In this document: in pieces, positions 1,626 through 57,207 of the stretch
How positions within the stretch are numbered: the stretch's first letter is position 1
Layout: the number at the start of each line of letters is the position of its first letter
DNA from: Pyxicephalus adspersus
Taxonomy: Eukaryota > Chordata > Amphibia > Anura > Pyxicephalidae
Reading direction: 5' to 3'
Length of the DNA: 64,000 nt
NCBI RefSeq assembly: GCF_032062135.1
Contig: NC_092861.1
Span: 137,184,078-137,248,077, forward strand
Made by a program: the position numbers and the translations under genes
Notes under the pieces: generated by a model
Seen by the model: only the letters and a program-made list of their open reading frames with translations
Database searches by the model: none
What the model was told of the DNA's origin: nothing

Positions 1626-3499
1626 CTCTCGGGGTTTATCTATGGATCTTTTTTTTAACACTTTATTAACCATCTGCAAACAAGTTTGTGAATAGGCAAA
1701 AACCATTTAAAAAACCTAACATAGTACATTGAGTGATTTATGTGTAGGGCAGGATAACTAGGTCAAAATTACGGGAAAATGCCTGAAGAAAAGAAGACCT
1801 TACTGGGGGTGGATGTAAACCACATAAGAAACGTGTTTTTTATTAATTCCAGTGACCAACATCTGTGCATTTCCAGTCATTATACAAGAAAATACAGCTT
1901 GGATATTCCATAGGATTTATATATTTTTCTCGAATTTGAGACCAAATGAACATTATTCCATCCTGTGATTTATACATTTGACAGTCTGGGGTCTTGTTAC
2001 CTTAGACGCACTTCGCAGGATGGATGAACCAGAGAAAAGGCCTCCGTCATAGTTTATATTTCCTGTAATACTGACAGAGCTTTGGGAGTAAATCAGTTTT
2101 TTAGTTGGTAGTCTTTTTTTCTTATCCTTCACCTGGAATCAGCTAAAATTTCCTTCTGCTTCTCTGCAGATCAGAATCGGCTTCTTGAATTTCAAGGTGT
2201 CCTACATATTGCCTCTTGTCTCTGCCACAACTGTAAATTACCGGTATATGGACACCCTGGAAAGACGGTGCAAAAAATAAGTTTGAATTATGAGGTTGCA
2301 GTGATTAGGTCTGTAATTTTATAGGGCTTGATTAACCTCTTCCCTAGTGCATAAGGTAGATTAACAACGGTACAGGGAGATTTATTTTCCATCCCACCGT
2401 TAATCTGAACTAGAAGACAACTGGTATTAAACTGTAAAGCCACCCGATTGATGAGGTTCAGCCCAACCTACCACTGCCCTGTATGAAAACCATTCATAGG
2501 TTAAATGGGTATGGGAGCCTCATAGGAGTTTTGGACTGGCACCAATGCATCAGGATGACCGGCAATGAAGGATCTTTCACTCTTTCCTCCTTAAATCCTG
2601 AAACATTCAGCACATTGGTTCAGGTCTGTCCGATTCCAGTCTTGTTTTGTTTGATCCGCTAGATAGAGGAGAGAAGAGATATGTGGCTGTGGGAAGAGGC
2701 TATGCTAGGGAATTCTGTCCCCTTTCACTTTAGTGATTGCACACAATTTGGTAAGCCGCTCCCAGGAGTACAGCCAACTGCTGCCATGTGCCCAAGAGTG
2801 GCAAACCGGACCACAGGCCAAAATTTGAGCACACATGGCCCTTATGTTTGAGGTTGCAGTTCTTCCTTCAGAAAAGCAACCACATGGCCAGAAGTGATGT
2901 ATCACTTCTAGGATTTGGTCTGCAACCCAACCGCAAATGTGTGCACAAAATGGCTAAATTTCGTAGGATGGGTATGGTTGGGAGTATGGCTGAGTCTTCA
3001 ATACAATGCCGTGGTCAACCGCATCTGAAGGGGGGGGGGGGGGTCTTGGCCTGCAGTTTTTTAGGTTGGTGGCAGGGTGTCTTGAAAGTGAACCTGCCAT
3101 TTTGAACTTTTAAAAGTTAAAGCTCTGGCAAAGAGCAACCACCAAAATAAACCTATCCTTACTTTAACTAACCAGGAAAAATACCCTGTGTGCGCCTCTC
3201 CAAAAGTGGTTACTGGGCACTCCTCAACTGCCACTGCCCTTTTCAGTGAGAGTTTCCCTTTTGGCTACAGGACACTCATTGGACAGAAAGATGGGATTGG
3301 TAGAGGTTACCACTTAGGGCTAATTCACTTGTATGGTTGTGAAGTGTGGAGGTTACCGCTTCACAACTGCATGCCGGGCAATGCAAGAAGCTTTTGACAT
3401 ATGTGAGATTTCCTGGGATGGTTGAGAAATGCCTTCCAACTCCCTCTCAATGCCAGTGGTGGTGCCTGGCAGGATGTCAACTACATAAGTGACCAAAGC

Positions 3500-51560: not shown

Positions 51561-51734
51561 AATCAGATTGTCCTTTAAAAAGCATAGTTCATTATATAGG
51601 TCCTTACCCAATTGTGATTAGCCAGGAAAGCAGTAGAGCTCCTAAATATGAACTTTTGGACACATGGAAGCAGGATGGAATACATGAAGCATCAGCTTAC
51701 TTTGGGCACTGTGTGAGATCATACTTCTTTTTTT

Positions 51735-51800
51735 CTGACCAGGTTGAGTGCTGGTTGCTTGAATTCCGTATTACGGAAGATTTACCGTATAGAAGTAAAT
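51735..51800 (-). repeat. dispersed repeat end, copy 1
   Basis: CCAGGTTGAGTGCTGGTTGC then CGTATAGAAGTAAATAA. It is clearly similar to 53141-53205, including the T-rich start TTTTTTTCTG. Possibly a pogo-like terminus. Confidence 0.45.
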
Positions 51801-52405
51801 AATGTTTGATTGTATCTATGGCAGTATATTAAAGCAAACCTGTTTGTACATCACCAGCTGTTTTAGAGATGTAACACGTAAGATATTGAGTATGTGGATT
51901 TGTGCACATCATCTCCTAAGATATCTAAGGGCGGTGTCTATTTGAGCAAGTTTTCCATATGCAACCATATGGCTAAAGCCAACTAGCAAACGAAAGCTAG
52001 TAAAAGCCTTGGTTAGTCCAACAACTTACTACTAGAAACTCATCTAGTAGTAAGTTAGGAACCTTTGTGTTTTTTTTCTCATGTGTGGGTAAGAAAACTA
52101 AAACATTTAAATATTATGAGTTCCTAAATTTACATCAATATTGACTTGAATAATCCAGTTTTGCAGAGACCTCAACATCAGAAAAAGTTGAAAGCTATTA
52201 CCCGTCCTAATTTTGTCCAAAACTAAATTCCATGTCCTTTGGGGGGAGGGGGGGTTGAGTCCACCAAGGCCTAACGGGCTCTTTCTTTTAAACCCAGGAT
52301 TTTAATTGTGTGAGCTATTTAAGTATTTTGTAATATTAAGCTTATTCAAACACTCCACTTGTTTAGAAAATAGTTTCAACAGGCTCTAAAAAGTGAACAT
52401 TTCAC

Positions 52406-52647
52406 TTAACCTCCCTAGCAGTAAACCCGAGTGTGACTCGGGGTAGAAAAAAAGTTGCTAAAAGCATATTTTTTTAAATATTTGGATTTTTTAATTTATT
52501 CAATTTATTATTTTTACATGAATTTGTGTTTCAAACTTTATTATACTCATACTATTATATTATACTGTAAAATAAATTTTCATGAAAAACAATGTACCGC
52601 TTTTAGACACATAAAACCGGAAAGAAATGAACCGCTAGGGAGGTTAA
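52406..52647. mobile_element. TTAA-flanked MITE (CCTCCCTAGC family)
   Basis: The left end TTAACCTCCCTAGCAGT pairs with the right end ACCGCTAGGGAGGTTAA with one mismatch, and TTAA is present at both edges. The interior is very AT-rich and non-coding. I recognise the CCTCCCTAGCGGT terminus as abundant in frog DNA. The TTAA target suggests a piggyBac/Kolobok-type origin, different from the CGTACACAC family. Confidence 0.85.
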
Positions 52648-53140
52648 CTATGAAGAAAGTTTACAAAAACTTAAGATTATCCTCAGACATCTTACCAATA
52701 ATTTCTAGGTCTTAGGAAAAATGTTTATCTTTTACACTTGTAATTTGGTTCTCTGTGTTGATTTTTTTTTTCTCCCATAATAGAAATTATCTTCTCTTTT
52801 GCTATATGTGAATAATGGCAAAAGTCACATTTATTTTATTTTTTCAGATTGCAATAAGAACTTTGCATTTGGCACCCATGGCAATGACCCCATCTTCATC
52901 CAGAAATCAAAACCAATCCTTCCCATCCATATGCAATTTGAAAATAAGCCATTACATTAGTAATATTTGGTGGTCCAGAGCTGCAGTTCAGGTGCTTTCA
53001 TTTCTGCCTTTCGTCATGATGTTATAATGCCACAGCTGGACTCTTCAGAATTTTATGGGCGTTAGCCAGTACTGACATTTTTGGCAGCTGAGAACGCATG
53101 GGAGCTGGAAGCGAAGCATGACGCATTTTTTTTTCTGTCC

Positions 53141-53205
53141 AGGTCGAGTGCTGGCTGCTTGTGTTCTGTATAACTAGAAGTTTACTATATAGAAGTAAAT
53201 AAAAC
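53141..53205 (-). repeat. dispersed repeat end, copy 2
   Basis: CCAGGTCGAGTGCTGGCTGC then CTATATAGAAGTAAATAA, matching 51735-51800. It lies directly left of the direct repeat that starts the orphan element at 53231. Confidence 0.45.
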
Positions 53206-53230
53206 AGGTCAACATGTCACTTTCATCAGA

Positions 53231-53380
53231 TATAATTTTATGTGGGCTCTGTAGTATTTTTGGTGTAGATTTCAAATCTGTTTTTAGTTTTTCCTCTAGC
53301 ACCTCTAGTTTTTGTGATGCAGCTAATTATATACTGTGTGAAATTCATTACAAATAGCTTGTTAAATGTTACAACATTTA
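53231..53380 (+). repeat. left direct repeat of the orphan element
   Basis: TATAATTTTATGTGGGCTCT, then GATTTCAAATCTG, CTCTAGCACCTCTAG, TTTTGTGATGCAGCTAATTA and GTGTGAAATTCATTAC. The same blocks in the same order and orientation recur at 55279-55434. The left copy ends about 58 bases before the start of the orphan frame. Confidence 0.8.
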
Positions 53381-53438
53381 ACAACAGTTTTCTTTTTTAA
53401 GGTTAGAGACCGCACTGTGATGAATTTTATTAGTCATC

Positions 53439-55131
53439 ATGCCTAAAAATTGCCTTAATGATCCAGACGGTTTCAGTTACGTGTGTGGTTTATTCACGAG
53501 GAAAGCACAACGTCGCCAAATTGCCACAGAACTTAAAAAGATATACAAGTTATATTTTGGCTGTCCACTTGGTGACCAGGATAAATTTTGGCTCCATCTC
53601 TCATATGTACCAGTTGTTCCAACGGACTGGGTGACTTGGCTAAATTGGCATGAAGCAGCAATGACATTTGCAATCCCGATGGTGTGGAGAGAACTGTGAG
53701 ACCATCTAATCGACTGCTACGTCAACAAAAGTGGATTCTCAGGTAAAACTAAGCACAAAATTGTATATCCCAGCCTTGATTCTGAAATTAGGCCTGTTCC
53801 CCATGATGATTCATTGCCAGTTCTGGTACTGCTACATGATGGACTTGCTTCTGTAGAAGGTGATGAGGAATGCGCTGGACTTGCAGCCAGTTACAACCCC
53901 GAACCATCTGATCCTGACTACTTGGCCGATGGAGATTCAGAACCAGAGACCTTTACACAAGCAGAGCTGAATGATCTCGTCCGTGACCTAAATCTCTCCA
54001 AAGACAAAGCAGAACTTTTTGCTTCAAGGCTTAAACAGAAGCATTTGCTTGCAATGGCTGTAACTGTACTATAACTCACAACAAAAAACGAAATCATAAC
54101 TTGACAACGTTCTTCACTAGTGATGGCTCACTGTGCTACTGTCATGATATAAATACACTATTTAACAGTTTGTCACAAGAGCATGTTCCATCTGAATGGC
54201 GTATCTTCATTGATTCCTCTAAAAGAAGCTGGAAAGCAGTCTTACTGCATAATGGTATTTCCAAAACAAGTTTACCGATTGCCCATTCCATTAACCTAAA
54301 GGAGTCCTATGACAATATGAAGATACTACTTGAAGTAATACAGTATAAAACTCACCAGTGGAACGTCTGTGGGGATCTAAAGTTCATTGGCTTGCTGATG
54401 GGAATGCAAGGATTATTCACTAAATATTGCTGTTTCCTATGCCTGTGGGTGAGCCAATCTATGGGAGACCATTATATCAAGCGTGATTGGCTACCAAAAA
54501 AATACCTATAAGCCCGGAAAAAGCATTGTCAAGTTTCTGCCTCTGGTTGATGCGCATAAAATATTTCTGCCACCTCTCCATATCAAGTTAGGTTTGAGGA
54601 AGAACCTTGTAAAGGCCATGGGTAAACCAAACTCCATGGGTTGTCAGTGCCTTGTTGAGAAGTTTCCAAACATAAGCACTGCAAAAATAAAGGAAGGGAT
54701 ATTTATAGGGCCACAGATCAAGTCTGTTCTGCAGGGTGATGTTTTCAAACAATCTCTCTCAGCAGCTAGAAGCTTGGGATGGATTCAAGTGGATGTGTGA
54801 AAATTTCCTGGGCAACCAAAAGTCTCCTGCATACAAGGAAGGAGTTCAGAATCTGCTTGATTCATACCAGAAACTGGGTTGTCGCATGTCATTAAAAATA
54901 CATTTCTTGCACTCACTTCTAGAATTCTTCCCGGAAATCTTGGTATGGTGAGTGATGAACAAGGGGAACGTTTTCACAAGGCCATTCAGTTAATGGAGCA
55001 CCGCTACTAAGGTTTCTGGAATGAAAGTATGATGGCTGACTACTGCTGGATGCTGCACCACGACAATCCAAAGAGTACACAAGAAAATTATACTCTAAGC
55101 ATTTCTGAAGAGACAATGGTACCTGACTGAC
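53439..55131 (+). pseudogene. decayed orphan protein of a widespread multi-copy family, possible transposase
   Basis: A reading with one in-frame TGA (53697) and several frameshifts (near 54066, 54505, 54760 and 54945) gives one continuous protein of about 560 residues. Recognisable blocks: MPKNCLNDPDGFSYVCGLFT at the start, LGDQDKFW, FAIPMVWRE, ELNDLVRDLNLSKDKAELFA, SEWRIFIDSSKRS, WNVCGDLKFIGLLMGMQG, CCFLCLW, KIFLPPLHIKLGL, KEGIFIGPQIKSVL, MSLKIHFLHSLLEFFPE, SDEQGERFH and MMADYCWML. I recall near-identical uncharacterised proteins in insects and other invertebrates and in amphibians, often in many copies. Conserved Asp at 54212-54214 and 54374-54376, a Cys-x2-Cys after it and Glu at 54966-54968 would fit an RNase H-like transposase core; this is inference. 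The N-terminal part of the family usually has more Cys than this copy. Confidence 0.8.
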
Positions 55132-55278
55132 ACTGTTCAGTAGATCTATATCACAGTGTGCCTTTTTTTGCTTCACACTGAAGATGTATTAACATTCACT
55201 TCAATGGTGCTTACGTTTTAGTACAAAATACATGCACGTACAATGTTAACTATAATAGTACTCAAACCTAAGGAACTG

Positions 55279-55434
55279 TATAATTTTACGTTGGCTTTGT
55301 AGTATTTTTGTGGCAGATTTCAAATCTGTGTTCAGTTTTTCTCTAGCACCTCTAGACTAGCAGCCTTTTGTGATGCAGCTAATTATAAATTGTGTGAAAT
55401 TCGTTATAAATAGCTCTAACATATTACAGCATTT
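55279..55434 (+). repeat. right direct repeat of the orphan element
   Basis: TATAATTTTACGTTGGCTTT, GATTTCAAATCTGTG, CTCTAGCACCTCTAG, TTTTGTGATGCAGCTAATTA and GTGTGAAATTCGTTAT. It differs from the left copy by substitutions and an insertion of about nine bases after CCTCTAG. Together the two copies bracket the pseudogene at 53439-55131. Confidence 0.8.
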
Positions 55435-56215: not shown

Positions 56216-57207
56216 TGCCCAGAACGTAGTCTTTCTTTTCCCCAGTGGTTAACTATGTGATCTTATGTAATTTTGACCATTAATGAGCTTGTTTTTAATC
56301 TAAATTGCTTCAATCTTCCTCATTTTTTGTAAAAGCCAACAGTAGGGCTAAATAAAAAAAAACTTTAGGTTTGTACTTGAGCGTATTCAAATATAAGCCA
56401 AAATGTACCAAGATATTGCTTTCAACCTTAAGGCCAATCAAGGTTTTCAAACCTGTGTTCAGCTTTCTGTAGCCATGTGTATGAATAGATCACTTTATGT
56501 GTTTTAAAGTGTTAAGGGTGACGTGAGGAAACCTTTGACACTTCCAATAGGAAATTCTATAAAACCATTTCATGGGGGGAAAGGACATAAGCTAAGCAAA
56601 GGCTTCTTTGTATCTTGCTCGCTCAACAAGTTTTCTACTATAAAACATTTTTTATTAGAGGATTAGTAGATGTGACAAGTCGCCTCTGCAGGAATAAGGT
56701 TAAATATAACTGTAAAGGTACAAGAAAACAAAACATGGGGAATTACTTTATATTTTCTACAAATGGCAGCTTAAAATAAAGAACACCATTAAAAGGTGGC
56801 TTTTTGGGCTCATAAAACAGGGAAACTGACATTCCCTCATACATTCCCTTGTGGGAATCTTCCAAGTGCATGTGTTTCAATTTCAGTAATTGATTCCCAC
56901 CAGGGAATGTCAGATTCCCTGTTTTATAAATAGAGCCCTTTGTGTTTACTCTGTGGGTGTTTGCCAGTAGCAACCCAATCACATTTCTGGGCTGTCACCT
57001 GGAACAGGTAATTTCAAAAACTTTTTCTAGGGAAACATTTTTAATATTTTAGTTTAGGGTAAATCTTAATCATTCATTGTGTTTAGAGAAAGTTGTCATT
57101 CTGAAACATTGTCGTACAGCGATAGGGCCCAATAAGCATTGCTTGTAATCAGGGCAGGGCCAAGGGTTAGCCAGAAGAGAAGGCCACCTTGGGTTCTTCA
57201 GCAAGTG

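Follow-up and report, generated by a model that had tools for sequence, protein, structure and literature searches.

Does a decayed reading frame lying between two direct repeats of about 150 bp represent a new kind of mobile element? This question is raised by a 64,000-nucleotide stretch of the Pyxicephalus adspersus genome (the window; NC_092861.1, positions 137,184,078 to 137,248,077), in which a frame of about 560 codons is bracketed in this way. An earlier sequence-only reading had proposed a discrete mobile unit that is defined by its terminal direct repeats and belongs to a poorly described class. The analysis presented here indicates that the locus is very probably a Chapaev3-type cut-and-paste DNA transposon, present as a dead copy whose right end is truncated. 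The direct arrangement of the repeats is private to the window copy among the copies examined.

Genomic copies, element ends and target sites

A search of the own genome (1.44 Gb) yielded 53 aligned pieces, and 40 places of 1771 first-look candidates were scored. Besides the window, they comprise 39 other copies, whose main matches have 84-90% identity; given the number of first-look candidates, the true copy number is probably larger than 40. All 39 other copies, some of them truncated or interrupted, were retrieved and aligned with their flanks. Those having both ends align to the window from approximately 53189-53204 to approximately 55280. In the flank alignment the ends are sharp, with CACAGGTCAACATGTCA at the left and GTTGACCTGTG at the right. 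The proposal of a discrete, multi-copy mobile unit is supported. The full unit is about 2.15 kb long, extends from CACAGGTCAAC to GTTGACCTGTG, and contains partly inverted subterminal repeats and one gene, encoding a transposase of about 559 amino acids. Its length is 2045-2200 bp in 23 of the 28 copies with both ends scored (range 1960-2948 bp).

A scored left end was obtained for 33 of the 39 copies (none for six), and a scored right end for 32 (none for seven). With mismatches permitted in the location of the end motifs, 29 of 33 left ends begin with CAC and 30 of 32 right ends finish with GTG. The outer three bases are TAA or TTA at 27/33 left and 24/32 right ends, the base preceding the duplication is A in 30/33, and the base following it is T in 30/32. 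Identical 3-bp flanks, always TWA, are present in 18 of the 28 copies with both ends; shuffling the right flanks among copies gave a mean of 9.0 identical pairs and never more than 17 in 10000 rounds. Target duplications, for which the sequence-only reading had advised looking in aligned copies, are recovered in these 18, but not throughout. An earlier, looser scan accepted 31 copies, 19 with identical flanks, and a stricter right-end pattern dropped three of these. Exact 5-bp flank identity at the CAC/GTG boundary was found in none of the 31 copies.

For the window copy, the target can be read from a paralogous empty site upstream. The paralogue reads AAATAA followed directly by TGTTTG, where the window reads AAATAA followed by the element (76 columns before the element aligned). 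This fits insertion into A-TAA-T.

The transposase and its relatives

The frame in the window is decayed, as had been noted, with in-frame stops after codon 86 and near 55008 and frame changes near 54070, 54508, 54750, and 54940. Using a read-through query, 7995 candidates sharing most words were scored and the best 120 relatives listed. At least 1888 relatives were found at E<=1e-3, the best being 68% identical over 98%, in line with the claim of a multi-copy family. Organism names are attached to four of the 120 listed relatives, namely Eleutherodactylus coqui (a frog, 62%), Oratosquilla oratoria, Uroleucon formosanum, and Mythimna loreyi. Most of the 120 come from contigs of about 2.0-3.3 kb in metagenome or read-archive data, as would be expected if assembly of a high-copy unit of about 2.2 kb stops at the ends of the unit.

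Eighty of the 120 listed relatives were aligned, with a protein of 559 amino acids (P0001) as the first row. The key residues (DDE, C(2)C, LH, and H(4)H) are present in 80/80 aligned relatives, except C332 in 79/80. The Asp, Asp, Cys-x2-Cys, and Glu residues pointed out by the sequence-only reading are therefore invariant or nearly so. In P0001, the putative catalytic core comprises D259, D313, and E509 or E512, while C332/C335 and H490/H495 are predicted to be the likely zinc ligands. The predicted model of the transposase adopts a RAG1/Transib-like RNase H fold, which, together with the D/D/CxxC/E core, agrees with the earlier suggestion of an RNase H-like core. N-terminal Cys pairs are conserved in the aligned relatives, and the region is modelled as a domain, a candidate counterpart of the Chapaev3 complex zinc finger described below. 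During transposition, this putative N-terminal zinc domain would take part in binding the element ends, and the RNase H core would cut the CAC ends. The cut ends would be joined to staggered A-TWA-T targets, and repair would leave the 3-bp TWA duplication.

The window matches P0001 (tblastn) in three pieces with five stops, covering 546 of 559 residues, and the second Cys pair of the N-terminal domain is missing from it. An intact P0001 match in one piece without a stop is absent from the window and the 39 other copies, all 40 being broken. Pairwise Kimura two-parameter distances among 30 near-complete units (29 copies and the window; 435 pairs) average 0.107 and range from 0.080 to 0.151. This narrow spread would suit one old burst of transposition behind the family.

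Pfam, run on the five broken window pieces (E<=10), gave only Fe_hyd_SSU at 17.4 bits against a cut-off of 24, which was dismissed. Sequence-profile searches of the PDB with queries A1 and A3 gave nothing at E<0.1, and a viral structure library gave no match at E<=1e-3. Among IMG/VR and GTDB contigs, A1 produced 34 and 32 pattern matches, respectively, none of which was confirmed by tblastn. No match was found in phages with the window DNA or in plasmids with P0001 as query, nor was the peptide VSDEQGERFHQD found in a literature search. The window is without a match in Rfam at gathering scores.

The direct repeats of the window copy

Both repeats are present where the sequence-only reading placed them, with 81.6% identity over 158 columns (BLASTN within the window, E 1.5e-36). 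They do not bound the unit: the first base of the element is 53203, ahead of the left repeat, and the right repeat is no part of it. The window element halts at 55280, where a 2-bp overlap (TA) leads into a left-end fragment that begins 28 bp inside the left terminus. A right terminus was looked for beyond this joint in the window copy, and none was found. The right repeat matches the left-end region in 34 of the 39 other copies (no match in L034, L035, L041, L043, and L044). When five normal right tails were compared with the window's right repeat, a minus-strand alignment of 36-46 bp was obtained in 5/5; part of the right tail is thus an inverted counterpart of the left region, and the family has partly inverted ends. 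Two loci, L016 and L033, additionally match the right repeat in inverted orientation at their right end. In L033 (oriented locus, 3060-3138), the left end is repeated in inverted form as the right end, which adds a further case of rearranged ends to the family.

A new class of mobile element bounded by direct repeats of about 150 bp would draw on the fact that, in the window copy, the frame does lie between two genuine repeats. However, none of the 39 other copies has left-end sequence repeated directly on the right side of the frame, an outcome that the sequence-only reading had itself named as telling against its proposal. The normal right end is a different tail of about 111 bp ending in GTTGACCTGTG, matched by 36/39 copies (not by L013, L043, and L044) and not by the window, and the left terminus with its duplication falls outside the left repeat. 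A new class is vanishingly improbable on this evidence. The sharpness of the joint could also be taken to indicate a distinct sub-lineage, represented by the window copy, that is mobilised together with a left-end duplication in direct orientation on its right side. Such a sub-lineage is very improbable, since the arrangement occurs in one of the 40 copies examined (40 of 1771 candidates scored) and the window copy is without a detectable right terminus. Furthermore, a genome search with the right repeat (40 places scored of 827 candidates) returned 12 loci, and in 11/11 of those outside the window the repeat sits at the element's left end.

In the window element, read here as a truncated Chapaev3-type copy, the right 110 bp or so are missing, and a second left-end fragment occupies the break in direct orientation with the 2-bp overlap. 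Candidate routes are aberrant gap repair, ectopic recombination, and nested loss; the simplest origin of the fragment would be faulty repair, or a rearrangement at a later time in which another copy took part.

Table 1. Positions of the element, its parts and the empty site in the window.
Feature	Position	Strand	Remarks
A, then TAA as left member of the 3-bp TWA target-site duplication	A 53199; TAA 53200..53202		Basis: same position in other copies and paralogous empty site
Left terminus AACAGGTCAAC	53203..53213	+	Family form CACAGGTCAAC; first base deviates in window copy
Left subterminal region of element (left repeat)	53231..53379	+	Present in left end of other copies
Decayed transposase frame (pseudogene)	53439..55127	+	About 560 codons; stops and frame changes
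Final stretch still alignable to other copies	55221..55280	+	About 110 bp short of normal right terminus
Second left-end fragment at broken right end (right repeat)	55279..55434	+	Direct orientation; outside normal element
Paralogous empty site	51728..51802	+	84% identity to 53128-53202; match stops exactly at element start

An early idea that CACTGTGAT (53413) and ATCACAGTG (55150-55158) form heptamer-like ends was dropped, as other copies place the ends elsewhere. A candidate third repeat copy at 56445 was rejected, as its best score of 61 stayed below the maximum of 73 reached in 200 shuffles; the 18-base core alone did exceed chance there. Upstream of the element (about 52428-52650) lies a TTAA-flanked repeat with the ends CCTCCCTAGCAG and CGCTAGGGAGG, which we take to be similar to a piggyBac-type miniature inverted-repeat transposable element, presumably of a kind associated with frogs. 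Downstream, a 26-bp inverted repeat is located at 56812-56927, its arms being 96% complementary and separated by 64 nt.

Class assignment and comparison with known systems

Chapaev3 was reportedly named in a 2008 Repbase report. In the passages of PMC4079192 that concern it, it is marked by terminal CAC and GTG, by TWA duplicated between A and T, and by the motifs C(2)C, LH, and H(4)H; an element described there measures 2,289 bp and encodes a 556-residue transposase. Passages of PMC4411706 place Chapaev3 with RAG1 in a wider Transib group, describe Chapaev transposases as only distantly related to other Transibs, and name the N-terminal complex zinc finger of Chapaev3 the "Chapa domain". In an excerpt of PMC12730594, C(2)C and H(3-4)H motifs are described as common to the group. 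The window family shows the Chapaev3 hallmarks in its termini, TWA duplication, and transposase size and motifs; the notion of a poorly described class is not upheld, as these features are already treated in PMC4079192.

Several points weigh against this assignment. Membership is argued from anatomy and sequence motifs, with published descriptions of Chapaev3 as the sole standard. The permitted mismatches mean that the CAC and GTG counts lean towards the motif, and flanks are not identical in 10 of the 28 copies with both ends. The catalytic Glu may be either E509 or E512. A comparison by hhalign with a Transib alignment (50 of 120 listed Transib relatives) gave a non-significant probability of 2.5%, a result that the distance reported between Chapaev and Transib might lead one to expect. 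A TWA duplication is also known for PIF/Harbinger and would suit a transposon of that type; the CAC/GTG ends, the C(2)C, LH, and H(4)H motifs, and the predicted RAG1/Transib-like fold favour Chapaev in a comparison confined to the published marks of Chapaev3 and the RAG1/Transib fold, and a PIF/Harbinger-type element is extremely improbable. Taken as a whole, the Chapaev3-type reading is held with high confidence.

A side observation concerns P0001 residues 1-132 (window frame from 53439), where the N-terminal zinc domain weakly resembles the ZAD of insect C2H2 regulators. The ZAD (zf-AD) match is weak, with 12.3 bits against a cut-off of 28 for the one member shown, and a best Foldseek E of 0.15. 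In Drosophila C2H2 regulators and ZNF276, the ZAD precedes C2H2 fingers, whereas the domain of the window family is attached to a transposase. A literature search combining ZAD domain, transposase, and RNase H-like found nothing, and the two transposase passages of PMC9810180, a paper from the ZAD literature, concern THAP. It is conceivable, if rather doubtful, that the Chapaev3 domain is homologous to the ZAD of arthropod ZAD-C2H2 regulators and vertebrate ZNF276. One group may then have received the domain from the other, possibly via a captured transposase. This possible link is the sole part worth follow-up.

Transib target-site duplications are 5 bp long, in contrast to the 3-bp TWA of the window family. 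Chapaev3, as represented by Merrow, Garfield, and Conan in the passages of PMC4079192, resembles the family in its CAC/GTG ends, its TWA duplication between A and T, its unit of about 2.2 kb, and its transposase of about 556 amino acids with DDE, C(2)C, LH, and H(4)H; no tested hallmark differs from the published description. Thus, the proposed new class is removed, and a widespread, mostly unnamed protein family gains a name and a likely function as Chapaev3-type, RAG1/Transib-like transposases. The predicted model lends structural support to the published view that the Chapaev3 catalytic core is common to RAG1 and Transib. The window element is, on this reading, an ordinary dead copy of a common cut-and-paste transposon, and its enzyme a distant cousin of the antibody-gene recombinase RAG1.
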